A stretch of DNA of 64,000 bases, taken from NCBI GenBank assembly GCA_031432545.1, contig JAVKGX010000009.1:1-64000 (forward strand). Direction: 5' to 3'. The notes under the pieces are model-generated. The model was not told the DNA's origin. It made no database searches and worked only from the letters and a program-made list of their open reading frames with translations. The position numbers and the translations under genes were made by a program. The stretch comes from Armatimonadota bacterium (GTDB taxonomy: Bacteria; Sysuimicrobiota; Sysuimicrobiia; Sysuimicrobiales; Sysuimicrobiaceae). Positions 2,571 to 18,242 of this stretch are shown here, one piece after another. The stretch's first letter is position 1; the number at the start of each line of letters is the position of its first letter.

Positions 2571-2603
2571 CCGCGGCCGGAGCAGTAGGAGCTCCGGCCG
2601 CGG
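2571..2603 (-). terminator. Strong GC hairpin behind the pilin gene
   Basis: CCGCGGCCGGAGC (2571-2583) and GCTCCGGCCGCGG (2591-2603) are perfect inverted repeats around a 7-nt loop, 27 bp past the pilin stop. In the minus direction the hairpin is followed by CATTTCGG, only mildly T-rich, so termination may be partial. It separates highly expressed pilin mRNA from the glycosyltransferase genes and argues that the glycosyltransferase starts downstream of it. Confidence 0.55.
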
Positions 2604-2629
2604 GGCCGCACCCACGCACCTCGAAGCCG

Positions 2630-3025
2630 CTAGAAGCCGCTCGATGTAAGCGTGGCCGCGCCCGTATTGTACAGCGTCAGCGTGACGGTCGCATCCGCAA
2701 CCGGGCTTCCGTCCTTACCGGTAGCCGTCATGGTGATCGACTCAGCGTCGCCCGTGCCGTACTCAAAGCTCCAGTTGGCCGTGGTCGCCGCCGGCTGTCC
2801 ATTGAAGCCCTGGAATGTGTTTCTCTCCACGTAGTACAGCCACGCGCTGGTGCGCATCTCCTGCAGGTTCTCCTGCGCCTCTGCCAGGTACGCCTTCTTG
2901 CGCGTGCCGAGGTAGGCGGGCAGGGCCAGCGCCAGCAGGATCGCCAGAATGACGATCACCATGATCAGTTCGATCAGGGTGAAGCCTCGCTCGTCTTTGC
3001 GCATCCTGATCAGTCTGTCCAGCAT
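2630..3025 (-). CDS. Type IV (pseudo)pilin
   Basis: A 131-residue prepilin. A short basic leader ends in ERG, followed by the class III cleavage site G^FTLIE (cut after residue 14) and a roughly 25-residue hydrophobic N-terminal helix. The mature chain is processed and N-methylated by PilD and assembled by the PilB/PilC machinery encoded at 18.9-25.8 kb. The C-terminal domain is small, lacks a disulfide pair and ends in TSSGF. The pilin at 18.2 kb has a near-identical N-terminal half and the same SSGF end, so the two are paralogues. It stands alone, with about 200 bp of upstream non-coding DNA and a hairpin behind it. Major versus minor pilin cannot be decided. Confidence 0.9.
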   Translation of the reverse strand: MLDRLIRMRKDERGFTLIELIMVIVILAILLALALPAYLGTRKKAYLAEAQENLQEMRTSAWLYYVERNTFQGFNGQPAATTANWSFEYGTGDAESITMTATGKDGSPVADATVTLTLYNTGAATLTSSGF

Positions 3026-3226
3026 GTCACCCTCCTTCCGTGTCCTTGGCTGGTCCTTCGATACCCTTGCGACTCACTTGCGGGTAAGCAACTCCCGTGC
3101 CATCACCTCCCCACCCCGACACTTTCTCCGTCACGTGGGATATACCCAATGGGGGCGGGTCGTAGTCCTGGCCGGGGCCGGCCGGCGCGGGAGACGGGCG
3201 GGTGTTCGCGGACGCGGTCTGGTGGG

Positions 3227-4696
3227 CTAGGAGTCTGTCGACGCGATCCAGCGGGCCAGGTCCTGCGCGGAGCGGACGCGCCCGTCCAGCACAGCGAGCA
3301 CGACCCCGTGCAGTACCGTGGCGTCCGCCGGTGCGGAGTGCTGCCAGCCCGCTTCATCCGGAAACCGGACGAGCAGCGGCACGCGCAGATCCGCCGCTTC
3401 GCGCTCGCGGTACCAGTGGTCGGAGGTCACCACCACGGCGCTGTCCTCCCACAGTCCCGCACGCTCCATGGCCTGCCGTACGGCACCCAGCGTGCGGTCG
3501 GCGAGCACGAGGTTGTCGTCGTAGCCGCCCGCGCTGTAGGTTATCCGCTGCTGCGCGCGGTCGAAGATCCACGGCGGATGTGGCAGGGGCAGGTGGATCC
3601 ACACCAACTCCGAGGCTGGGTCAGTGACGGCCTGCCGGGCTGCGTCCAGCAATCGCAGGTACCACGCTTGTGGGTCCTCCCGCACCACCTGGCCGAAGAC
3701 CGGCAGGGCGCGCAGGGCGTAGAGGAACTGGCGGCCGACGGCTTCGGACAGGCGCGTGCGGTCTTCGGGGCGCGGACCGTCCCAGCCGGCACCACCGTCG
3801 TTGAGCGCCGGCACCTGCCAGCATCGGGACCCCGGCGGGACGAGGTCGCAGTACGGCAGCCAGGTGCCCACCACCGCTACCCTCGCGCCGGCGCGCGACC
3901 CATTCAGGAAGACGGTTCGCGCGGCGGCGAGATCGTGGAACTCCTCCTCGCCGCGCCACCGGACCCACAGGCGGTTCCTGGAATCGAGGAAGGCGGCCTC
4001 AACCGCCCTGCCGGTTAGCATGGCCGGTACGGCTTCCAGAGTCCGGCCCGCCGCGGCCCGCATCTGCGTGGCGCGGAACGAGCGGGCGGCCAGGCGATCG
4101 AACTCCTCCAAGTTCACGTCGGGACTGCGACGGTCGAACGCCAGGTCGTGGTCGAGTTCGTCGAACAACAGCACGACCGTGCGGCGCAGGTCCGCAGGCG
4201 ATGGCACGACGACACCGTTTGGGTGCTGCGCGGGCGCCGGCAGTGCGAGCACGAGGGCCTGACCCACCGTCACCGCGGCGAAGGGCAAGCACGCCACCAG
4301 CACACCGCCCAGCACCCGGTGTACCCGTTCCGTGTGTCGGACCACAGCCCAGACCGCCAGCGCGCCGGCACCGGCCAGCACGAGTGCCTTCGCTTCCCAG
4401 GGCCAGGGCCCGCCTCCCATGTCCAGCGGCAGCGCCGCCCGGCGGACGACGTTCAACGGCGCCAGCAGGGCCAAGGCCACCAGCAGCGTCCACACCACCT
4501 CGCCACGGCGACCCAAGCGGCCGAGGACTGCCTCCAGGGTCCACAGCAGCAAGGCTAGGGCGATGACCCCCACCAAGGAGGCCACCGGCGCCTCAGAAGA
4601 CCGCACGCCCCACGCCCGGCTGTACAGCACCCGCTCCCACACGGGAAGCCACAGCACGTTGGCGAGAGACGCCGTCCGCGCCAGTCTCCACGCCAC
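3227..4696 (-). CDS. Membrane-anchored sulfatase/alkaline-phosphatase-fold hydrolase
   Basis: 489 residues. The N-terminal third (to about 155) has four or five membrane segments; the rest is an extracytoplasmic alkaline-phosphatase-superfamily domain. Visible metal and active-site elements are the FDELD motif (178-182), a Thr in GRT (219) in the nucleophile region, IHLPLPHPP (367-375) and TSDHW (424-428). The layout resembles sulfatase-like transferases such as LtaS and phosphoethanolamine transferases, but a CxPxR sulfatase signature is absent, so a true sulfatase is unlikely. It is probably a phospho- or sulfo-transferase acting on a surface glycan or lipid. The gene follows the methyltransferase by 1 nt and belongs to that operon. 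Confidence 0.75.
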   Translation of the reverse strand: MAWRLARTASLANVLWLPVWERVLYSRAWGVRSSEAPVASLVGVIALALLLWTLEAVLGRLGRRGEVVWTLLVALALLAPLNVVRRAALPLDMGGGPWPWEAKALVLAGAGALAVWAVVRHTERVHRVLGGVLVACLPFAAVTVGQALVLALPAPAQHPNGVVVPSPADLRRTVVLLFDELDHDLAFDRRSPDVNLEEFDRLAARSFRATQMRAAAGRTLEAVPAMLTGRAVEAAFLDSRNRLWVRWRGEEEFHDLAAARTVFLNGSRAGARVAVVGTWLPYCDLVPPGSRCWQVPALNDGGAGWDGPRPEDRTRLSEAVGRQFLYALRALPVFGQVVREDPQAWYLRLLDAARQAVTDPASELVWIHLPLPHPPWIFDRAQQRITYSAGGYDDNLVLADRTLGAVRQAMERAGLWEDSAVVVTSDHWYREREAADLRVPLLVRFPDEAGWQHSAPADATVLHGVVLAVLDGRVRSAQDLARWIASTDS

Positions 4697-4697
4697 G

Positions 4698-6134
4698 TCA
4701 GTCCCTCCGCACCATGCAGTACAGCCGCCTTGCGCTGCCGGGGATCTCCGCGACGTCCACGATGTCGAACCACTGCCGGAAGGCAGCCTCGAAGGTCTCC
4801 TGAGTCCAACTTGCGAACAGCGTGTCCCGTCCCCGCACGAGCCTGCAAAACATGGGATCGTCTTGGGGCACGAACTCTACCAGCGCAAAGCGCCTGGTCA
4901 GGTCGCGCGTGAGGGCCGCCACCTCCCCAACGGGGATGTGCTCGGTGACCGCCAGGTGGTGGATCAGGGCGAGCATGAGGACGCAGTCGAAGCGGCCCTG
5001 TGCGCGGTCCAAGAAACTCCGGCATTCCAGGTTCCGCCAGCCCAATGCGGGGGTGGAGCGCGCCACGTCCACCACAAGGGGCAGGACGTCGCAGCCAACG
5101 CTCGCCGCGCGCCGCCAGGCCAGGCCCACAACCACCGGGTCGCGGTCCACGGCGACCACCCGCGCTCCGGTCCCGGCGGCTGCCTGCGCCAGCGAACCTG
5201 TGTTGCACCCGAGGTCCAGCACCGTCTTGGGCGCCAGACGGCGCAGGGTGCCGACCACCCAGTCGTGCTTCGCTCGCCGCGCCTGGGGCGGAATCGCCTC
5301 CTCGTAGCGGGCCCACTCGGAGTCCCGGCTCGCGGGCGGCTGGAGGCGCTCCAGTTGGTCCCGCAGGCCGCGGAACAGCCTGCGCAGCACGTGGCCGGCT
5401 ACCTCCGCGTCCCCGATGCGCCGGCGGTGCAGCCGTTCCCCCATCCGGTCGGCCCAACCGGCCAACCAGTGCGGCAAGGTGGCAAGCGTCAGCACCGGCG
5501 GCCGGAGCCGCGCCCACGTCCCCAGCCAGCGGACCGCCTGCTCCGGCGCAAGCCCCTCCCGGTAGGCGGAGAACACCACGGCGGGCGGAACGCGGGCCCA
5601 GCGCCACAACGCCAACGGCAGCAAAAACGTCCGCACGAACTGCCCGTAGGCGGTCCACACGAAGTCCCCGGGTTCGCGAGGTTCGAAGGAAAGGACATCC
5701 ACGAACACCGGCCTCGGACCGCGGAACAGCACGTTATATGGCGTGGCGTCCTTCAGACCGAAACCGAACTCCAGGCTGCGCTCGCAGAGCTCCAGGGTCA
5801 GCCGGCCCGCCTCCCACAGCATCTCCGCCGGCCACTCGTGCGGATACGAAGGGAACTCGACCGTCTCGTGCCGCAAGACGAGGGGACGCTCGCCAGCAGC
5901 GTTCGCTCCGCAGGCTGGCTCCTGCCCCGGTGGCTCCGTCTGTGCCGGCCAGGTGGGAACCAGCAGACCCTCGTCCACCAGCCCGCGAAACAGGGGACTC
6001 TCCAGGAACGTGCGGACACGTTCTGCCGCCCCTTCGCGGACGATCCGGAGGACTTCGCCGTCGAGTTCGACCAGTGATCCGTCAGGGTCGCGGAAGGACA
6101 GCCGCTTGCCCGTCGCCTCCCGGGATCCGCTCAT
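4698..6134 (-). CDS. SAM-dependent methyltransferase with kinase-like N-terminal region
   Basis: 478 residues from an ATG overlapping the TGA of the 76-residue gene upstream (ATGA at 6131-6134). The C-terminal half is a class I methyltransferase: VLDLGCNTGSLA is motif I, followed by an acidic residue in AVDRD and a later LMLALIHHLA segment. The N-terminal half carries LKDATPYNVLF and PVFVDV, which resemble the catalytic and metal-binding loops of aminoglycoside-kinase-like folds. The overall type resembles NoeA-like methyltransferases of polysaccharide loci. Its operon with a sulfatase-like hydrolase and a small membrane protein points to surface glycan modification. The exact substrate is unknown. 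Confidence 0.75.
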   Translation of the reverse strand: MSGSREATGKRLSFRDPDGSLVELDGEVLRIVREGAAERVRTFLESPLFRGLVDEGLLVPTWPAQTEPPGQEPACGANAAGERPLVLRHETVEFPSYPHEWPAEMLWEAGRLTLELCERSLEFGFGLKDATPYNVLFRGPRPVFVDVLSFEPREPGDFVWTAYGQFVRTFLLPLALWRWARVPPAVVFSAYREGLAPEQAVRWLGTWARLRPPVLTLATLPHWLAGWADRMGERLHRRRIGDAEVAGHVLRRLFRGLRDQLERLQPPASRDSEWARYEEAIPPQARRAKHDWVVGTLRRLAPKTVLDLGCNTGSLAQAAAGTGARVVAVDRDPVVVGLAWRRAASVGCDVLPLVVDVARSTPALGWRNLECRSFLDRAQGRFDCVLMLALIHHLAVTEHIPVGEVAALTRDLTRRFALVEFVPQDDPMFCRLVRGRDTLFASWTQETFEAAFRQWFDIVDVAEIPGSARRLYCMVRRD

Positions 6135-8530: not shown

Positions 8531-8557
8531 CGCCCACCTCCGCGCACGTCTTGTCCC

Positions 8558-8581
8558 ATTATACCATACCGAGTGTAGTAT
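8558..8581 (-). promoter_or_regulatory. Minus-strand promoter (-10 TATAAT) with second CstR-type operator
   Basis: On the minus strand TATAAT (8558-8563) is a perfect -10 box for the DUF2892-OsmC unit; the -35 is weak (CTCAAA, 17-bp spacer). The 21-bp element 8561-8581 starts ATACCATAC and ends GTGTAGTAT. It is itself an imperfect inverted repeat (7 of 9) and matches the 6626-6646 element at 16 of 21 positions. It also lies upstream of the nitric oxide reductase reading frame, so one site could control both directions. Confidence 0.7.
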
Positions 8582-8597
8582 TTGAGGCATCTCCCCC

Positions 8598-8610
8598 TGT
8601 ACCTGGTACC
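8598..8610. repeat. Single copy of the 13-bp GTACC repeat
   Basis: TGTACCTGGTACC matches the repeat unit found in tandem at 10845-10914 and 18201-18242. It lies in the leader between the operator at 8561-8581 and the start of the nitric oxide reductase frame. Confidence 0.6.
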
Positions 8611-8649
8611 GCAGGACCTCCCACATGGGCCGGAGAAGCCAAACATCGC

Positions 8650-10845
8650 ATGCGTCTGACCCTTCGCCAGGTCAACTTACTTCTGCTCGGCGTCGTGGTC
8701 CTAAGTGCTCTGGTCCTGACCTGGGGCACCGTGGAGACGTATCGCCACCTCCCGCCGCTGCCCGAACTCTTCACCACCGGTGACGAAACGGTGCTGTTCA
8801 GGCGCGAAGACATCCGCGCCGGCCAGCGGGTCTTCCAGCGCCGCAACCTAATGGGTTTCGGGACGCTGTTCGGCAACGGCAGCTACTTCAGGCCGGATTT
8901 CGGGGCAGAGTACTTAGCATTCTTGCGGGATCACGTCGCGGATCAGTTCGCCCGAGAACAAGTGGGATGACCGTTCCGCGACCTTTCGCCGGGCGATCCT
9001 CCACATAGCACGAGTGGGCACCAACCAGGTCTCCCTGCCCGACGAGTGGAGCGAGGCGCACCAGGCCTTCGCGGAGTTCTATCATCGGCGCTTCGTGGCG
9101 GGCGATCGGGCGCTGGGGATTGCCCCGGGGACCCTCCAACCCGACGAGGTCCGGCCTCTCGCTGCGTTTGTGGCATGGACGGCGTGGGTATCCTTCACCG
9201 CCCGCCCGGGATCTGACGGCTCGTACACCAACAACTTCCCGCCCATGCCGGATCTCGGTCTGGTCCCCACCGGGCAGACCATCCTGTGGACTGCGTGGTC
9301 CGTGGGATGGTTCCTGCTCCTGGCATTCTTGGTGGTCCTGGCCTTCGGAGCGGTGGATCTGGAACCCATCCCCGTACTTCCGTCCGTCGAGGAGCGGGCG
9401 GAGGGTTCGCCCGGTTTTCTGGCCCGGGTGACGCTGCTGCTGATGGGCGGCTGTTTTTTCATCTTTGCTCCTCCAGACGTTGGCAGGCGGTTATCTTGCG
9501 AACGCCTACGCCTCGCGTGAGGACTTCTACGGGGTGTTCTCGGGGTTGGGCCTCGAGCGCATGGCAGTCCTTCCCTTCCAAGCCGTCCGGTCAGCGCACA
9601 CCGCGATGGCCGTGGTCTGGGTGGTGGGTCTGTGGATGTCCGCAGCCCTGTACGCGGCTCTCCTGTTGGGCGGACGGGAGCGCCCGTGGCACAAGCCGGC
9701 CGCCTACGTGTCCATCGCGATCCTCGCTGTGAGCGTGGTCGGCACGCTGCTGGGTGTGTACGCCAGCGTCCGCGGGTGGGTGGACTCGCCGCTGGTGGGC
9801 AGCGAGGGGACGGAGTACCTGAAGATGGGGCGGCTGTGGCGGGCGGGCATCGCGGCGGGCTTCACCTTGTGGGTGGTGGTCCTCGCCTCTACCCTGAGGG
9901 GCGCTGAGGTGCGCTGGCGGCCACTGTTGCAGGTCCTGCTGTGGAACGGAGCCGGCATCACCGCGGCGCTCTATGCCAGCTTCGCCTACGGCCCGATAGC
10001 CACTGGGTGGTGGTGGACTTCTGGCGGTGGTGGGTGGTCCACCACTGGGTCGAAGGGATTTTCGCCTTTTCCAGATCCTCGTGTTCGGGTGGTTCTTCGC
10101 GGGACTGGGACTGGTAAGCCGCGAGGACGTGACAAAGAGCCTGTACCTGGAAGGCGGCCTGGTCCTCCTCGCGGGCTTTTTGGCCATCGGCCACCACTTC
10201 TGGTGGGTCAGCCAGCCGCCGCTGCGGCTGGGGGTGGGTAGCGTCTTCAGCACCCTGGAGGTGCTCCCGCTGTTCCTCCTGCTGAGCACTGCCCTGCGGG
10301 CGGGTCGCCGTGGCGTACACGTACGTCCCTCGCTTCGTTGGCCGTTGTGGTTCTTCGTGGCCAGTGCCATCTGGCAGTTTTTGGGTTCGGGGATCCTCGG
10401 GCTGCTGATCAACCTCCCCGTGGTGAACTGCTATGAGCACGGCACCTTCCTGACCGTCGCGCACGGCCACGCCTCATTCCTCGGCGCGTTCGGCTTCGTG
10501 GCCGTGGGCATGGGACTCTATGCGGTGCGGCACGCATGTCCCGACGGCTGGAGTGACCGCAGGGTGGCCGCGGCGTTCTGGGCTCTCAATGTGGGGCTGT
10601 TCCTCATGGTCTTTCTTAGCGTGACGCCGCTAGGGGTCATGCAACTCTCCGAGGCGGTACGTGTCGACTATGCGGCGGCCCGCAGCCTGCAGTTCTACCA
10701 GCGGCCCGAGGCACTGCTCCTCAACAAGTTACGGCTTCCAGGCGATGCCCTGATCATCGTCGGGGCGGCAGCCTTGGTCGCTGAGATACTCCCCAAGCTG
10801 CTCCGAATCCTCGACTTGCTCAAGCCGGCTCGAAGGAGCTCCTAG
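8650..10845 (+). pseudogene. Quinol-dependent nitric oxide reductase (qNOR), four frameshifts
   Basis: Read across frames, this is a full-length qNOR (about 730 residues, NorB/NorZ type) that would reduce NO to N2O in the membrane using quinol. It has the extra N-terminal quinol-enzyme segment with YTNNFPP, then the heme-copper-family core: HHWVEG, GHHFWW and HGHASFLG supply the FeB and heme ligands and the FeB glutamate. The frame is broken near 8959 (+1), 9465 (+1), 9992 (-1) and 10063 (-1, in a T run). No stop lies between shifts in the correct frames. Each break is a single base and the rest of the window is intact, so recent decay is likelier than assembly error, though the latter is possible. 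The final frame ends at TAG 10845. Confidence 0.85.
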
Positions 10846-10923
10846 AACCCGTACCTGGAACCGGTACCAGGAACCCGTACCTGGAACCCGTACGTGGTAC
10901 CGGTACCTGGTACCGATACTGGT
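10845..10923. repeat. Tandem array of 13-bp GTACC repeats
   Basis: Five head-to-tail 13-bp units run from 10850 to 10914 (for example CGTACCTGGAACC, GGTACCAGGAACC, GGTACCTGGTACC), with a partial unit on each side. Consensus SGTACCWGGWACC. Units are nearly self-complementary, so the transcript can fold into alternative hairpins. The array begins at the stop codon of the nitric oxide reductase frame and ends just before the promoter of the fluoride locus. Confidence 0.8.
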
Positions 10924-10969: not shown

Positions 10970-10980
10970 GAACCCGGCAC

Positions 10981-11040
10981 CAAAGGGGCGATGGAGCTCG
11001 CCCTCATATACCCGAGATGCCGGGTTGATAGCTCCTACTG
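10981..11040 (+). promoter_or_regulatory. Fluoride riboswitch (crcB motif), copy 1
   Basis: The aptamer has the conserved GGCGATGG core closed by a GGGCG/CGCCC stem, a second stem ACCCG/CGGGT, then TTGATAGCTCCTAC. The loop GGAGCT (10993-10998) can pair exactly with AGCTCC (11030-11035), the pseudoknot that encloses the Mg2+-fluoride site. In copy 2 the corresponding pair is GGAGCC/GGCTCC, so the helix covaries. The 3' CTCCTAC also forms the left arm of the following terminator, which gives an ON switch when fluoride binds. Confidence 0.93.
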
Positions 11041-11063
11041 GTCGACCAGTAGGGGCTTTTTTA
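11030..11063 (+). terminator. Expression-platform terminator of fluoride riboswitch 1
   Basis: CCTACTGGTCGACCAGTAGG (11034-11053) is a perfect palindrome. The stem extends outward with AGCT/GGCT (one wobble) and is followed by seven T (11057-11063 region). Its left arm overlaps the aptamer CTCCTAC, so ligand binding competes with termination. Confidence 0.9.
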
Positions 11064-11899: not shown

Positions 11900-11989
11900 C
11901 GCCATAAGCAAGGTCCGACAGGTGCTGTGGCATCCGTCCGGCGGCTTCACCCCGACCCTGGTACAGTCGGTGAATCGATCCGTCCGGCC

Positions 11990-13171
11990 ATGACGAGATC
12001 GAATCTGCTCCCACCCCACAACGGCACCCGCGCCGCGACGCGGTTCGTGATCCTGATGGGCGTGGTGAGCCTGTTTGCGGATGCCACATACGAGGGCGCA
12101 CGCAGCATCCTCGGGCCCTACCTGCTCGCCCTGGGCGCTTCCGCCACCGGCGTGGGATTCGTATCGGGGTTCGGGGAACTCGTGGGCTACGGTCTGCGCC
12201 TCGTGTCGGGTCGGCTCGCGGATCGAACCCGCCGTTTCTGGGACTTCACCGTCGGGGGCTACGCGCTGAACTTGTTGTCCGTGCCGCTGCTGGCGTTGGT
12301 CGGCCGGTGGGAGGTCGCGGCGCTGCTCGTGGTGGTGGAGCGCGCGGGCAAGGCGATACGGACGCCGCCCCGCGATGCCATGCTGTCGTATGCCGCAAGC
12401 CGGGTGGGCCCGGGATGGGCGTTCGGGCTGCACGAGGCCCTGGATCAGATCGGAGCGGTGGCCGGTCCCCTCATTGCGGCCGCAGTCCTGGCAGCAGGCG
12501 GCGGCCTGCGAGGCGGCTTTGCGGCCCTGGCGGTACCGGCCGTACTCTCCTTGTTGTCGTTGGCCAGGGCCCGTGTCCAGTTCCCGCAGCCCTCTCGAAT
12601 GGAGGATGCTTCCTTCCCGTTGGACCTGCGCCCGCGTCGTGCCCTGGGCCTGTACCTCCTCGCGGCAGGGCTGGTGGCGGCAGGGTTTGCGGACTTCCCG
12701 CTGCTCGCGTACCACTTCACCCGGACGGCCGTCGTCCCGCAGGCTGCCGTCCCCGTTCTATACGCGTTCGCCATGGCCACCGACGCGGTTGCGGCCCTGG
12801 TCGTAGGCCGCTGGTTCGACCGATACGGAACACCGGTGCTGGCCCTGGGGACCGCAGCGACCGCTGCCTTTGCGCCCCTGGCCATCTTCGGCGGACCCAC
12901 AGGGGCGGTCGTGGGTGCAGCCCTGTGGGGTATGGGAGTGGGCCTGCAGGAGTCGGTGCTGCGTGCCGCAGTGGTCGGCATGGTGCCCCCGGACCGGCGC
13001 GGGTCCGCGTTCGGGTTGTTCCAGACGGTGTACGGCGTGGCATGGTTCGCAGGTAGCGCCCTGATGGGCGTCCTCTACGACGCACGCCCGGCCTACCTGG
13101 CGTGGTTTGCGGCGATCACGCAGACTCCCGCAGCCGCCCTGTTCGCCGCAGTGGCGGCTCATCGGAGGTGA
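11990..13171 (+). CDS. MFS transporter in the fluoride-riboswitch-1 unit
   Basis: 393 residues with about 12 hydrophobic segments. The family A motif appears as GRLADRTRR between helices 2 and 3, and as GRWFDRYG in the matching position of the second half. ERAGKAIRTPPRDAML after helix 4 is characteristic of a bacterial MFS subgroup of unknown substrate. The ATG at 11990 sits right before the first helix; upstream codons to 11927 look non-coding. The gene begins 90 nt after the second coiled-coil gene, with no terminator between them, so read-through from the riboswitch transcript is likely. No CrcB/Fluc or CLC-F channel is present in the window, so fluoride or a co-ion is one candidate substrate. 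Confidence 0.8.
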   Translation: MTRSNLLPPHNGTRAATRFVILMGVVSLFADATYEGARSILGPYLLALGASATGVGFVSGFGELVGYGLRLVSGRLADRTRRFWDFTVGGYALNLLSVPLLALVGRWEVAALLVVVERAGKAIRTPPRDAMLSYAASRVGPGWAFGLHEALDQIGAVAGPLIAAAVLAAGGGLRGGFAALAVPAVLSLLSLARARVQFPQPSRMEDASFPLDLRPRRALGLYLLAAGLVAAGFADFPLLAYHFTRTAVVPQAAVPVLYAFAMATDAVAALVVGRWFDRYGTPVLALGTAATAAFAPLAIFGGPTGAVVGAALWGMGVGLQESVLRAAVVGMVPPDRRGSAFGLFQTVYGVAWFAGSALMGVLYDARPAYLAWFAAITQTPAAALFAAVAAHRR

Positions 13172-13264: not shown

Positions 13265-13294
13265 TTGACTTGAGTGTCGGCCGCGCCGGATAAT
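13265..13294 (+). promoter_or_regulatory. Sigma70 promoter of second fluoride-riboswitch transcript
   Basis: TTGACT (13265-13270), an 18-bp spacer and GATAAT (13289-13294), directly before the aptamer. Confidence 0.75.
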
Positions 13295-13297
13295 GGG

Positions 13298-13351
13298 CAC
13301 TGGCGATGGAGCCCGCCTAAACCGCCTCCGAGAGGGGCTGATGGCTCCTAC
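13298..13351 (+). promoter_or_regulatory. Fluoride riboswitch (crcB motif), copy 2
   Basis: CTGGCGATGGAGCC, a CGCC strand closing the first stem, TAAA, a GCCTC/GAGGGGC second stem, then CTGATGGCTCCTAC. This is a close match to the published crcB-motif consensus. GGAGCC pairs with GGCTCC to form the pseudoknot. The loop and stem sequences differ from copy 1 while pairing is kept. The 3' strand is shared with the following terminator. Confidence 0.95.
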
Positions 13352-13380
13352 CCAGGTCGGGTGGGGGCCATTTCGTTTTG
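13343..13380 (+). terminator. Expression-platform terminator of fluoride riboswitch 2
   Basis: GGCTCCTACCC (13343-13353) pairs with GGGTGGGGGCC (13359-13369) through 11 pairs including two G-U, then ATTTCGTTTT. The left arm overlaps the aptamer, as in copy 1. Confidence 0.88.
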
Positions 13381-13410: not shown

Positions 13411-14598
13411 ATGGAGGCGGTCTGGTCGACGGCGGCGCTGTGGATTGTCCTCGCCCTGCTCGCAGCCCTCCTCGGAATCTGGCTGCGGGTATCCGTGGCC
13501 CTCACCGAGATCCTGGTGGCGATCGCAGCCAAGTGGGTGCTGGGTGCTTTCGGCCACGCTTCGTTTCCCGGCGCCCGAGACGGCTGGGTGATCTTCCTGG
13601 CGAGCGCGGGTTCGGTGCTCCTCACCTTCCTCGCAGGCACCGAACTGGACCCCGATGCCTTCCGACGGCGCTGGAAAGAGGCGACCGTGATGGGGCTGGC
13701 CGGATTCCTCGCTCCCTTCCTAGGCGCCGCGTGGGCCGCCCGCCAGCTGCTCGGATGGTCTCCGCAGGCCAGCTGGCTTGCCGGGATGGCCCTCTCGACG
13801 ACCTCTGTGGCGGTTGTGTACGCGGTGCTGCTGGAACTGGGGATCAACCGCACCGAATACGGCAAGGTCGTCCTGACCGCCTGCTTCATCAACGATCTGG
13901 GGACGGTGGTCGCCCTCGGGCTGTTGTTCTCGCCCTTTGGCTTGCGCACCGCGGTGTTCGTGGCTGCTCTCCTGCTCGGACTGTGGGCAGCCGTTCGGAT
14001 CGCCCGTCCCCTGTTGGGCCGCTACGGAGGACGGACCTCGGAAGTGGAGGCGAAGTTCATCTTGGCGGTGCTGTTCGCCCTGGGTGCGGTGGCCGCCTGG
14101 TCGGGGTCCGAGGCCGTCCTCCCGGCCTACGTGTTGGGCATGGCCTTGGCCGGGACAGTGGGGCGCCACGACGAGTTGGTCCGGCGTCTTCGCACACTGA
14201 CCTTCGGGCTTCTGACCCCCTTCTACTTCATCCGCGCCGGACTGCTGGTGCAGCCATCCTCCGTGGCAGGCGGCCTGAGCACGTTCATCGTCCTGTTCGG
14301 CGCCAAGACCTTCAGCAAGTTCGCGGGTGTGTTCCCCCTGACCTTGGCATATCGGTACGCCACGGGCGAGGCGATGTACACCACCCTGCTGATGTCCACG
14401 GGGCTTACTTTCGGCACCATCTCGGCGCTGTACGGCCTCAGCCACGGGATCATTGACCAGAGTCAGTACTCGTTCCTCGTGACGACCGTGGTGGCAAGTG
14501 CGGTGGTGCCGACCTGGGTGGCCGACCGTTTCTTTTTGCCGGCCCACCACACCCGCCCGGCACCTGCGGACCTGGTCCCGGCTGCGGGAGGCGAGTGA
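13411..14598 (+). CDS. CPA-type Na+/H+ (cation/proton) antiporter, fluoride-regulated
   Basis: 395 residues and about 12 membrane segments. The start ATG follows GGAGG by 8 nt; an upstream TTG lies inside the terminator and is rejected. The ion-site helix reads CFINDLGTV, with Asn-Asp where CPA2 exchangers carry the paired carboxylate motif. An earlier GTELDPDAF segment and SSVAG/FGAKTFSKFAG loops fit the KefB/NapA-like family. Na+/H+ antiporters are among the genes reported downstream of fluoride riboswitches. The protein may restore cytoplasmic pH or ion balance after HF entry, or move fluoride itself. Its stop codon overlaps the uspA-like start (TGATG), so the two are coupled. Confidence 0.88.
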   Translation: MEAVWSTAALWIVLALLAALLGIWLRVSVALTEILVAIAAKWVLGAFGHASFPGARDGWVIFLASAGSVLLTFLAGTELDPDAFRRRWKEATVMGLAGFLAPFLGAAWAARQLLGWSPQASWLAGMALSTTSVAVVYAVLLELGINRTEYGKVVLTACFINDLGTVVALGLLFSPFGLRTAVFVAALLLGLWAAVRIARPLLGRYGGRTSEVEAKFILAVLFALGAVAAWSGSEAVLPAYVLGMALAGTVGRHDELVRRLRTLTFGLLTPFYFIRAGLLVQPSSVAGGLSTFIVLFGAKTFSKFAGVFPLTLAYRYATGEAMYTTLLMSTGLTFGTISALYGLSHGIIDQSQYSFLVTTVVASAVVPTWVADRFFLPAHHTRPAPADLVPAAGGE

Positions 14599-15017
14599 TG
14601 TTCCGGCGCGTGCTGGTCGGCTACGACGGCTCTGAGGCTGCCGGCAAGGCGCTGCTGGCGGCCCTCGACCTGGCAGGACGATACCGCGCAGACCTGGTGG
14701 CGGTGGCGGTGGTGCGGCCGCCCGAGTTCGCGGAGCTACAGGGCGAGGTGGATGCGGCGCTCGCTCAGGCTCGCGGCCCACTCGCCGAGTCCTTCCGGTG
14801 GGCCCGGGAACAGGCTCGCAAGGTCGGCGTCCCGTTGACCCTGCGCACCGAGGTGGGACACCCCGCGGAGGTCCTCGTGCGTGTCGCACGAGAGGAGGGG
14901 TTCGACCTCATCGTCCTGGGCCGCCGCGGCCTCACACCGGTGCAGCGGTGGATGCTCGGTTCGGTGTCAGAACGCGTGCTCCGATACGCTCACTGTCCAG
15001 TGATGGTGGTCCACTGA
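14598..15017 (+). CDS. Universal stress protein (UspA family)
   Basis: 139 residues. FRRVLVGYDGSEAAGKAL opens the fold. The ATP-binding signature G-2x-G-9x-G-S is present as GRRG, nine residues, then GS, so an ATP-binding Usp is expected. Start ATG overlaps the antiporter stop, and its own TGA overlaps the next ATG (TGATG at 15015-15019). UspA genes are a recurrent member of fluoride-riboswitch operons. The likely role is a stress modulator of the antiporter or of metabolism; not provable here. Confidence 0.9.
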   Translation: MFRRVLVGYDGSEAAGKALLAALDLAGRYRADLVAVAVVRPPEFAELQGEVDAALAQARGPLAESFRWAREQARKVGVPLTLRTEVGHPAEVLVRVAREEGFDLIVLGRRGLTPVQRWMLGSVSERVLRYAHCPVMVVH

Positions 15018-16549
15018 TGCAAGAGGCATCCATCCTGTTCCCCACACCGCGACCTGCCCCGCTTTGCGAGCGCCCCCCCGCGTGCCTGCGCGATCTGGGG
15101 TTGGACCGCGTCGTGGAATCCGTCGCGGCGGGCCGGGAGGAGTACGGTGTCGAGGCTGTCTTCTACACACCTCTGGCGGAACCCGACGCCGTCGCCTTCC
15201 GCCAGGAGGTCTTCCGCGACTTACAGCACCGCGGAGTGTCGGAGACGGTGCGTGCCTTTGCCTCTGCCATGCGCAGCGTGCGGGCCAACCTCGCTCGTGC
15301 GGATCAGGCGCACTACGCCATCGAGACAGACCGCTGGTTCCTCGACGCAGCACACCGCTACGCCCATGCGGTCGCCGGACTCCTAGACGGCCTGGCTGCC
15401 CTTCGCCTGCAGAGCCGCGGCCTCGCACGCTTCCGCGACCGTCTGGCCGCCTACGCCGCCTCTTTCGGCTTCCGAGACCTCGCGCAGACCTCGGCGCGCC
15501 TGCACGCGGAGCTGTCGGCTTTGCGCTTTGCGGTGCTCGTCCGGGGACTGCGGGTCAGCGTCCGGCCTTACCGGGGAGAGCCGGACTACACGGAGGTGGT
15601 GCGGTCGACGTTCGAGCGGTTCCGCCAAGTCGACAGCGGCTCTTACGCCTTCGAGTTCCGGGAGTCCCCGCAACTCGAAGGCGTCGAGGCGAGAATCCTC
15701 GAAGGCGTTTCGCGTCTGTCCCCGGATCTGTTCGCCCGGGTGGCGGAGTTCCGGCGGGCCTGCGAACCGTTCCCCCCACCTTTGGTGGCGACCTTCGACC
15801 GCGAGGCGCACTTCTACCTCGGCTACCTGGATTACCTGGCTCCGCTCGCGACCGCGGGCCTGCCCTTCTGCTTCCCGGCGCTGCCATCGGACGACGGCGC
15901 GGATGCCTTCGTGGAGGGTTGCTTCGACCTGGAGCTGGCTGCGCAGCTGGCAGCAAACGGTCGCCAGCCGGTTCTCAACGACTTCTCCTTCCGCCCGCCG
16001 GAGCGGGCACTGGTGGTGACCGGTCCGAACCAGGGAGGCAAGACGACGTTCGCGCGCGCAGTGGGTCAGGCTTTCTACCTCGCCTCCCTGGGCTGCCCCA
16101 TACCCGGCCGCCACGCCCAGCTTCCGGTGCCGGACCGGGTCTTCACCCACTTCCCCCGGGGCGAGTCGGTCTACGACCTGCGAGGCGAACTCGAAGACGA
16201 CCTGGTCCGCATCCGCGAGGTCCTGCTGGCGGCGACCTCGAGGAGTGTGGTGATCGTGAACGAGATCCTCTCTTCCACCGCGCTCCAGGACGCGCAGACC
16301 TTGGGCCGACGCCTGCTCGGGCAGCTGTTGGACCTCGACTGCCTGTGCGTGTGGGTGACCTTCCTGGACGAGTTGGCTTCTCTGAACGCGAAGACGGTGA
16401 GCATGGTGGCCACGGTGCCGCCCGATCATCCGGAAAGGCGGACGTTCCGCGTGGTCCGGCGACCAGCGGATGGCCGGGCGTACGCCGAAGCCCTGGCCCG
16501 CAGGTACCGGCTGACATACCGGGACGTGCGCGAGCGGTTCGCCCCATGA
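15017..16549 (+). CDS. MutS-like ATPase, copy 1 (fluoride operon)
   Basis: 510 residues. The C-terminal part is a MutS-family ABC-type ATPase: Walker A GPNQGGKTT (336-344), and a Walker B strand VIVNE (412-416) with Asn in place of the usual Asp, followed by SST. The long helical N-terminal part (about 30-320) corresponds to the MutS core/lever region. The mismatch-recognition domain I with its Phe-x-Glu motif and the connector domain are not seen, so this is not a mismatch-repair MutS. MutS-like genes of unknown role were noted with the crcB motif. The gene overlaps both neighbours and is co-translated with its partner. Confidence 0.85.
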   Translation: MQEASILFPTPRPAPLCERPPACLRDLGLDRVVESVAAGREEYGVEAVFYTPLAEPDAVAFRQEVFRDLQHRGVSETVRAFASAMRSVRANLARADQAHYAIETDRWFLDAAHRYAHAVAGLLDGLAALRLQSRGLARFRDRLAAYAASFGFRDLAQTSARLHAELSALRFAVLVRGLRVSVRPYRGEPDYTEVVRSTFERFRQVDSGSYAFEFRESPQLEGVEARILEGVSRLSPDLFARVAEFRRACEPFPPPLVATFDREAHFYLGYLDYLAPLATAGLPFCFPALPSDDGADAFVEGCFDLELAAQLAANGRQPVLNDFSFRPPERALVVTGPNQGGKTTFARAVGQAFYLASLGCPIPGRHAQLPVPDRVFTHFPRGESVYDLRGELEDDLVRIREVLLAATSRSVVIVNEILSSTALQDAQTLGRRLLGQLLDLDCLCVWVTFLDELASLNAKTVSMVATVPPDHPERRTFRVVRRPADGRAYAEALARRYRLTYRDVRERFAP

Positions 16550-18177
16550 CGCCCCGCCTACTGCACCTCGATCGGGACTTCGACTGGCGTTGGGCCCTGC
16601 GGGCAGCCGCCGCCCGCACCGGTCCGCGCGACGCGCGCCGCTACCCACCTCCAGCGGACTTCGATCCCAACGCCGCACTCCCCCCGACGGCAGCCGACCT
16701 GGTGCGCGACCTTGGGCTCAGGCGGATCCTGGAGGCCATGGCCGCAGACGACCCCTTGGTGTTCGAGGTCGGCCGGAGGGTGCTGTTGGAGGGTACGGGC
16801 GGGGATCTCCGAACCGTGTTGTACCGCCAGGCCGTCCTTGAGGACTGTCTGGGCAACCCGGACGCCGTGCGCGAACTGTACGAGATCAGCGTGCAAGCTG
16901 CCGAGCAGGTGAAAGGCCACTACCTAGGGGTGCTCTCACGCTACCCCGACTGGGTCCTGCGGGAGTCGGTCGCCGCGCTGGAGGCGCTGCTGGGTTCACT
17001 CCGACGCCTGAGGGCGGCCGCGGACAGGCACGCCACCAGGTTCCGGAGCGAGGGCTGGGGGCATTTCTTCGCGGCTGTACGCCGCGACCTCGACGACTCC
17101 TACCTGGACGACGTGCGAGGTCACCTGCAGGCCCTCAAACTGCCCGAGGGCATCCTGTGGAGCGCGCACTCCGGGCCCTCCGGCAAGCCCACCGACTTCC
17201 TGCTGCACCCTCCCCCCAAGGGTCCGAACAACTGGCTCCAAGGCTGGCTGGAGCGGTGGAGGGCGTGGTTCCACCGCCGGGGGGAGGACTATACCTTCGA
17301 GCTTTCTCCCCGGGACGAAGCCGGAGCGAGGGCCCTTGAGGGGTTGCGCGCTCGTGCCCTCGCACCCGCGGCCACCGCCGTTGGGCAGGCCGCCGATCAC
17401 GTCCGGGACTTCTTCTCATCCCTGCGCGTAGAACTCGCCTTCTACGTGGGCTGCCTGAACCTGCACGATCGCCTCCGCGGACGCGGCTACCCCACCTGCC
17501 TGCCGACCGTCCACCCCGCGGGAGAGCCCCGCCTGCGCGCCGTCGCCCTGTACGACCCCGCCCTCGTGCTCTCTGCACAGGGGGCGGTGGTCCCCAGCGA
17601 TTTGGACGCAGACGGCAAACGGTTGGTGTTCGTGACCGGGCCCAACTCGGGGGGCAAGACGACCTTCCTGCGCAGTGTGGGCACCGCCTGGCTGATGGCC
17701 CACGCCGGGATGTTCGTGCCCGCCCACTCCTGCTCCGTCAGCCTGTGCGAGGGGCTGTTCACCCACTTCAAGCGTGAGGAGGACGCGCGCATGGAGACCG
17801 GCAAGTTCGCCGAAGAGCTACAGCGCATGCGCTCCCTCGTGGACCTCGCCACGCCGCGCTCGGTCTTCCTGTGCAACGAGTCCTTCTCCTCGACGAACGA
17901 GCGCGAGGGTTCGGAGATCGCCTCTCAGGTCCTAGCCGCCCTCCTGGAAGCCGGGGTGCGCGTGTTCTTCGTCACCCACTTCTTCGAGCTCGCGCACCGC
18001 TTCCGTGACCGGCAGGACGGCGATGTGCTGTACCTGCGGGCAGAGCGCGACGCCCTGGGCCGACGGACGTACCGGGTGGTGCAGGCCGAGCCGCTGCCCA
18101 CCAGCCACGCCCAGGACGTGTACGAGGGAGTCTTCGAGCCATCCACGGTGACGGCAGCGGGCGGACGGTCCGGCTGA
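16546..18177 (+). CDS. MutS-like ATPase, copy 2 (fluoride operon)
   Basis: 543 residues, starting at an ATG that overlaps the TGA of copy 1 (ATGA). Walker A GPNSGGKTT (365-373), Walker B VFLCNE with Asn for Asp as in copy 1, then SFSSTNEREGSE, which matches the MutS signature region (ST...EG), and FFVTHFFEL as the switch His. Like copy 1 it lacks the mismatch-binding domain and has no C-terminal Smr nuclease as MutS2 would. The two probably form a heterodimer, since MutS ATP sites form across a dimer. Last gene of the operon; the 13-bp repeat array follows. Confidence 0.85.
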   Translation: MTPRLLHLDRDFDWRWALRAAAARTGPRDARRYPPPADFDPNAALPPTAADLVRDLGLRRILEAMAADDPLVFEVGRRVLLEGTGGDLRTVLYRQAVLEDCLGNPDAVRELYEISVQAAEQVKGHYLGVLSRYPDWVLRESVAALEALLGSLRRLRAAADRHATRFRSEGWGHFFAAVRRDLDDSYLDDVRGHLQALKLPEGILWSAHSGPSGKPTDFLLHPPPKGPNNWLQGWLERWRAWFHRRGEDYTFELSPRDEAGARALEGLRARALAPAATAVGQAADHVRDFFSSLRVELAFYVGCLNLHDRLRGRGYPTCLPTVHPAGEPRLRAVALYDPALVLSAQGAVVPSDLDADGKRLVFVTGPNSGGKTTFLRSVGTAWLMAHAGMFVPAHSCSVSLCEGLFTHFKREEDARMETGKFAEELQRMRSLVDLATPRSVFLCNESFSSTNEREGSEIASQVLAALLEAGVRVFFVTHFFELAHRFRDRQDGDVLYLRAERDALGRRTYRVVQAEPLPTSHAQDVYEGVFEPSTVTAAGGRSG

Positions 18178-18200: not shown

Positions 18201-18242
18201 GGTACCTGGTACGGGTTCCTGGTACAGGTTCCTGGTACGGGT
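18201..18242. repeat. Tandem array of 13-bp GTACC repeats, copy behind the MutS-like genes
   Basis: Three head-to-tail units (GGTACCTGGTACG, GGTTCCTGGTACA, GGTTCCTGGTACG) plus GGT. It is the same unit as at 10850-10914. It lies between the convergent MutS-like and pilin genes and touches the pilin stop codon, so it may also serve as a bidirectional terminator. Confidence 0.8.

Follow-up and report, generated by a model that had tools for sequence, protein, structure and literature searches.

A tandem pair of MutS-like ATPases with a Walker B asparagine, encoded behind a fluoride riboswitch in an Armatimonadota contig

Described MutS-like systems and the pair

Genes named mutS were reported in 2010 to be preceded by the crcB motif (Weinberg et al. 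2010, PMC2864571), which has since been recognised as the fluoride riboswitch. In the accessible part of that report mutS is named simply as a DNA-repair gene, and a tandem pair, a clade or an altered ATP site is not described there; neither a later paper on the riboswitch-linked mutS nor an explanation of the association was found in the open literature, most subscription papers lying outside the search. The present analysis concerns two overlapping genes for MutS-like proteins, designated A and B, at positions 15017-18177 of a stretch of 64,000 nucleotides (the window) from an Armatimonadota bacterium of the Sysuimicrobiaceae (contig JAVKGX010000009.1, assembly GCA_031432545.1). The pair was found behind a riboswitch of the same class and, as far as the accessible text of the 2010 report goes, the mutS genes of that report very likely encode proteins of the A/B type. 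No description of the two genes as a tandem unit, or of their clade, rebuilt ATP site and distribution, was found in the open literature searched. The plasmid-borne relatives were labelled 'MutS-related protein' in RefSeq in 2026, and database labels like 'DNA mismatch repair protein MutS' probably give a wrong idea of A and B.

15017-16549, plus strand: MutS-like subunit A, 510 amino acids, lever/clamp and ATPase core (Pfam MutS_V, 8.5e-17)
16546-18177, plus strand: MutS-like subunit B, 543 amino acids (Pfam MutS_V, 3.5e-24), with an ATGA overlap with A

The two proteins share 27% identity, and each was found to contain MutS_V as the sole Pfam domain above the cut-offs. The mismatch-recognition and connector domains (MutS_I and MutS_II) were detected in neither protein by Pfam at an E-value of 0.1, and the Smr domain was found in neither by Pfam; a preliminary description of the window had likewise given two overlapping frames at these coordinates, lacking the mismatch-recognition and Smr domains. 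The predicted AlphaFold2 models (mean predicted local distance difference test score 87.5 for A and 87.4 for B) matched the lever, clamp and ATPase core of MutS, with VIA Z of about 28-30 to MutSbeta and MutS2 and with matches spanning about 355-400 residues in most of the top rows. The model of A was aligned to residues 260-770, approximately, of E. coli MutS, domains I and II being absent.

MutS2 (TIGR01069) was found to resemble A and B in the presence of levers, clamp and ATPase domain and in the absence of the mismatch and connector domains, with VIA Z to the T. thermophilus MutS2 core (7vuk) of 28.2 for A and 27.9 for B. In contrast to MutS2, A and B do not contain Smr, contain Asn instead of Asp in Walker B and Gly-Lys instead of the Ser-Thr signature, are two different subunits and fall in a separate clade; they scored 52 (A) and 83 (B) bits against TIGR01069, whose cut-off is 400. 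The MutS1/MSH proteins share the ATPase domain and the lever/clamp core with A and B, and MSH proteins also act as heterodimers, whereas A and B lack the mismatch-recognition and connector domains, contain NE in place of DE and belong to a different clade. A separate MutS1 and a separate MutS2 were found to be encoded on other contigs of the same genome.

The nearest precedent for the role proposed below is KamC (NF052383), to which NCBIfam gives the name lysine 5,6-aminomutase reactivase ATPase and which is also a MutS-like ATPase of about 500 amino acids. Membership of A and B in this family was rejected, as their scores of 33 and 74 bits fall well below its cut-off of 300 and they lie on a different branch of the tree; unlike A and B, KamC keeps Asp-Glu (DE in T. 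wiegelii KamC) and a Ser-Ser signature. The FRM island of Enterobacter cloacae, in the part of its description that is accessible (PMC5533749), contains riboswitch-controlled ppaC, uspA, eno, gpmA and crcB, and enolase and pyrophosphatase are given there as fluoride-inhibited enzymes with extra copies in the island. The same set was found beside the pair in enterobacterial plasmid islands, whereas the FRM six-gene operon as described in that part does not contain the MutS-like pair.

Pairing, ancestry and ATP site

A scan of bacterial and archaeal genomes gave at least 589 confirmed relatives of A, 80 of which were kept. Among the 100 loci collected, B was found directly after A on the same strand in 97 of the 97 where it was in reach, the contig stretch ending too early in the remaining three, and a four-base start/stop overlap of the ATGA type was found in 84 of the 97. 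In a maximum-likelihood tree of the ATPase region, with MutS1, MutS2 and KamC as references, A and B together with distant tandem pairs formed a single clade (100/100 support) apart from all three references, and MutS1 formed a clade of its own (96/95), so that A and B did not cluster with the repair MutS. The two paralogue groups were separate (A, 91/94; B, 87/91, with one distant B inside or near the B group), and the clade containing NE was the same before and after removal of a long-branched MutS-like protein of 602 amino acids (L167). Because of the constant adjacency, the frequent overlap and the two sister paralogue clades, A and B probably form a heteromer, as had been suggested in the preliminary description.

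The motifs of the ATP site were located as follows.

16022-16048, plus strand: A, Walker A GPNQGGKTT, residues 336-344, conserved in the family
16184-16189, plus strand: A, trans-signature G390-E391, where most A homologues contain Gly-Lys and MutS contains Ser-Thr
16259-16264, plus strand: A, Walker B Asn415-Glu416 (VVIVNE), 101/101 homologues
16361-16363, plus strand: A, H-loop Phe449 replacing His, Phe in 101/101 homologues
17638-17664, plus strand: B, Walker A GPNSGGKTT, residues 365-373, by sequence and family alignment
17800-17805, plus strand: B, trans-signature G419-K420, by family alignment
17875-17880, plus strand: B, Walker B Asn444-Glu445 (VFLCNE), Asn in 92/93 and Glu in 93/93 homologues
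17977-17979, plus strand: B, H-loop His478, retained in 93/93 homologues

Both the GPN-x-GGKTT motif and the NE in place of DE had been noted from the sequence beforehand, and the conservation of NE excludes a chance substitution. The catalytic Glu was conserved in all members compared (101/101 A and 93/93 B), and the Walker A Lys was invariant in both families. The trans signature was found to be Gly-Lys or Gly-Arg in nearly all A and B members, the Gly-Glu of the window's A being found in one of 101. In the alignment of the B profile hidden Markov model to Taq MutS, the Asn lies opposite D662 and the Glu opposite E663. In the predicted model of A, N415 closes the strand 411-415 and the residues before it are all hydrophobic, so there is no alternative Asp at the Walker B place. 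MutS1, MutS2, KamC and another MutS-like protein were found to keep the Asp, the Ser-Thr or Ser-Ser signature and the His, and the Walker B Asp was retained in 9/9 MutS1 compared. In E. coli MutS, residues 693-696 hold Mg-bound waters and their substitution abolishes ATPase activity (review PMC3848065); taken with the conservation of the A/B site, this makes the binding of ATP by A and B likely.

The Walker B Asn together with a Gly-Lys or Gly-Arg signature was also found in the distant tandem pairs (L192/L198, L193/L199 and L233), the A proteins of which contain the H-loop His. The H-loop Phe of A is thus characteristic of the main group, most of which is linked to fluoride, and of the diverged relatives of that group. 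Since distant pairs without a nearby riboswitch carry the same Asn and signature, the Asn is probably a mark of the clade, and the altered site appears to be older than, or independent of, the fluoride link. The earlier suggestion of phosphate or Mg-fluoride chemistry at the ATP site did not hold for this reason, and adaptation to Mg-fluoride was ruled out as the cause of the Asn.

By phylum, in draws each holding at least one genome already known as a carrier and named after the phyla of the centre loci, full-length A was found in 14/299 genomes of Bacillota, 12/296 of Actinomycetota, 2/349 of Pseudomonadota and 1/296 of Bacteroidota, and A was found in 11/43 genomes of the window's own phylum. 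Related pairs were found on plasmids of Klebsiella, Enterobacter, Citrobacter, Salmonella, Burkholderia, Rhodococcus and others. Some of these plasmids, among them ones from Klebsiella and Burkholderia, are conjugative. One subunit gene was split or contained a stop in L040, L042 and L215/L217 (plasmids of Burkholderia cenocepacia and Rubrobacter, and one genome of the phylum of G697).

Fluoride link and proposed role

The pair was found to be the third and fourth gene of an apparent plus-strand operon of four, containing an antiporter gene, a universal stress protein gene, A and B, in which every later start overlaps the preceding stop. The features at its 5' side were as follows.

13265-13294, plus strand: sigma-70-like promoter TTGACT-18-GATAAT, just 5' of the riboswitch (consensus scan, 10/12 matches; 0.2 expected in the region)
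13293-13357, plus strand: fluoride riboswitch aptamer RF01734, 5' of the operon (curated Rfam match of 55 bits, gathering score 34)
13340-13372, plus strand: terminator-like hairpin of 14 bp and its T-rich tail, found by pattern scan and by RNA folding, in overlap with the aptamer's 3' part
13411-14598, plus strand: CPA2-type cation:proton antiporter, first gene of the operon (Pfam Na_H_Exchanger, 1e-35)
14598-15017, plus strand: universal stress protein (Pfam Usp, 5.7e-36), its start overlapping the antiporter stop in the junction sequence

The terminator scan gave no more terminators than shuffled sequences, and the argument for the hairpin is its position: a fluoride-ON switch would be expected to have such a hairpin in competition with the aptamer. 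The A/B operon is probably switched on by fluoride, a reading drawn from the sequence layout and from the upstream enrichment described next, and the fluoride control proposed in the preliminary description was thereby supported.

All loci were searched with a covariance model trained on 29 Rfam hits from the window and the first loci, and Rfam's own model confirmed the riboswitch in a sample of eight. With the training loci of the model excluded, 76 independent loci remained. In 48 of these a riboswitch lies on the coding strand no more than about 500 bp 5' of A, where the local density predicts 2.2 such loci; with the range widened to 5 kb upstream the count was 58/76. No fluoride riboswitch was found in 32 stretches, some overlapping, around MutS1, MutS2, KamC and similar genes. 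At the level of genomes, the riboswitch was present in 11/11 pair-bearing genomes of the window's phylum and in 10/32 others (Fisher p 6e-5), and in 13/14 pair-bearing genomes of Bacillota and in 99/285 others (p 1.7e-5); these p-values are inflated by relatedness, whereas the positional enrichment holds over many phyla.

Enolase was found near 23 of the 80 independent loci (about 0.4 expected at one gene per 3 Mb) and a dynamin-like GTPase near 26 of the 80 (clustering and Pfam), and other recurring neighbours were MFS and CPA2 transporters, CrcB, Usp, a phosphoglycerate-mutase-like (Gpm-like) histidine phosphatase and DUF190. The antiporter gene also precedes the pair in relatives and in enterobacterial plasmids, and in plasmid islands the pair adjoins crcB, gpm, eno, usp and a Mn-type pyrophosphatase. 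With high confidence, A and B are held to be a fluoride-response pair. The conserved two-gene unit with its own clade, found in many phyla and on conjugative plasmids and often beside known fluoride-defence genes, argues against a stray DNA-repair gene, and the pair looks like an unexplained part of fluoride resistance.

The best explanation, which is held to be somewhat better than an even chance, is that A and B form a fluoride-induced, asymmetric clamp of the MutS fold that remodels a fluoride-poisoned target by means of ATP. Fluoride would turn the riboswitch on, and A and B would be made as two subunits of one complex, a clamp like the levers-clamp-ATPase core of MutS2. Its two composite ATP sites would be unequal, because only B keeps the H-loop His. 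ATP-driven remodelling would then act on a cellular target poisoned in fluoride stress, for example by the release or reactivation of an inhibited enzyme, alongside the exporters and the spare copies of fluoride-sensitive enzymes encoded nearby; fluoride-poisoned machinery is proposed because the neighbours export fluoride or duplicate fluoride-inhibited enzymes. That the target is a protein is a guess and is held only as a tentative, rather doubtful possibility. If the pair does rescue poisoned enzymes, fluoride resistance would gain a new arm and the MutS fold a role away from DNA.

Several points weigh against this explanation. About a quarter of the loci do not contain a riboswitch within 5 kb upstream, and the 80 loci were picked by similarity to members already linked to fluoride. 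No riboswitch was found near the diverged pairs (L195-L197) or the distant pairs (L198, L199 and L233), so fluoride is not the sole context of the wider clade. From the E. coli data on residues 693-696, A and B might bind ATP without hydrolysing it, and the remodelling step draws on location and on the analogy with KamC, which lies in a different clade. A broader version is a little more doubtful than a protein target: a separate MutS branch of heterodimeric non-DNA ATPase clamps, with the composite site rebuilt by the Walker B Asn and a trans Lys/Arg in place of Ser-Thr, may free enzymes locked by fluoride-Mg-phosphate in its main group and serve other enzymes in rarer groups, as near the HydG-like radical-SAM gene or the glycosidase cluster.

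Among the rival explanations, a DNA-acting MutS2-like clamp, which would restrain recombination or deal with damaged DNA under a fluoride-caused shortage of Mg or arrest of replication, is unlikely, at about one chance in a handful. The 'DNA repair (mutS)' label of the riboswitch literature reflects this reading, which is favoured by the MutS2-like core fold of both proteins, by the proposal in the accessible part of Weinberg et al. 2010 (PMC2864571) that the crcB motif answers DNA-damaging stress, and by the wider DNA site that results from the loss of domains I and II in MutS2 (plant MutS paper PMC12292046). However, nuclease, Smr and mismatch domains were not found in A or B by Pfam, and DNA-repair genes are not among the recurring neighbours identified. 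The stretch N-terminal to Walker A has a mean net charge of -7.3 in A, which is acidic, and of -1.7 in B, which is close to neutral; the point is a weak one, as MutS1 is also mildly acidic there. Mismatch repair itself is very probably not the function of the pair; the non-repair role of the preliminary description is favoured by the separate clade, the missing domains and the genome's own MutS1 and MutS2.

Less probable again is that the pair is not a motor but a switch sensing nucleotides or fluoride, in which the Walker B Asn would allow ATP to bind but make its hydrolysis slow or absent. A crystal structure of E. coli MutS carries this substitution (D693N, 3k0s), the loss of ATPase activity on substitution at 693-696 (PMC3848065) points the same way, and the H-loop His is lost in A, whereas the invariant catalytic Glu and Walker A Lys of both families and the His kept in B suggest selection for catalysis. 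The least probable rival, marginally behind the switch, is a MutS2-like rescue of ribosomes stalled by fluoride complexes that trap translational GTPases, for although a MutS2 structure was solved on collided disomes (7qv3), bacterial MutS2 rescues stalled ribosomes (PMC12292046) and the A/B and MutS2 cores are alike, Pfam finds no Smr domain, the genome already has its own MutS2 and no translation factor was found among the common neighbours identified.

Two other readings were rejected. For antiphage defence PADLOC gave only a weak similarity to mad8 (17-18 bits, in the ATPase region), and for a phage origin the matches in a phage collection were partial and distant, the best being an unverified faecal scaffold of 7.7 kb with a tandem NE pair.

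Further features around the pair

The dynamin-like GTPases, noted at 29 loci (for example L068, L091, L124 and L201) and so one of the most frequent neighbours of the pair, sometimes occur as two in tandem, and some lie behind fluoride riboswitches. A cluster like complex I or formate hydrogenlyase was found to recur near the pair (L046, L080, L092, L098, L113 and L119), in several cases preceded by a riboswitch. The distant tandem NE genes of L198 and L199 close a glycosidase cluster, and no fluoride riboswitch is listed for the genomes concerned. The distant tandem NE pair of L233 (positions 2602-5545 of MT837116.1, an unverified 'phage' scaffold from human faeces) adjoins a HydG-like radical-SAM gene and a PaaK-like ligase.

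In the window, a second riboswitch was found upstream of the A/B operon.

10978-11044, plus strand: second fluoride riboswitch, accompanied by a hairpin and T-run of its own (35.6 bits in Rfam against a gathering score of 34)

It lies 5' of two small open reading frames and an MFS transporter (11927-13171), and a similar riboswitch-MFS arrangement was found in the relatives L048 and L049. Arrays of the 13-bp repeat GGTTCCTGGTACN were found at 10841-10914 and 18201-18242, mostly in opposite orientation and nowhere else in the window, with seven matches against 0.10 expected by chance. The arrays bracket both riboswitch operons and may be the edges of a fluoride island; arrays of this type were not found in the relatives checked. 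A nitric-oxide-reductase-like gene at 8551-10845 appeared split over several frames, with NorB and COX1 matches in separate open reading frames, which points to a broken gene or an assembly frameshift.

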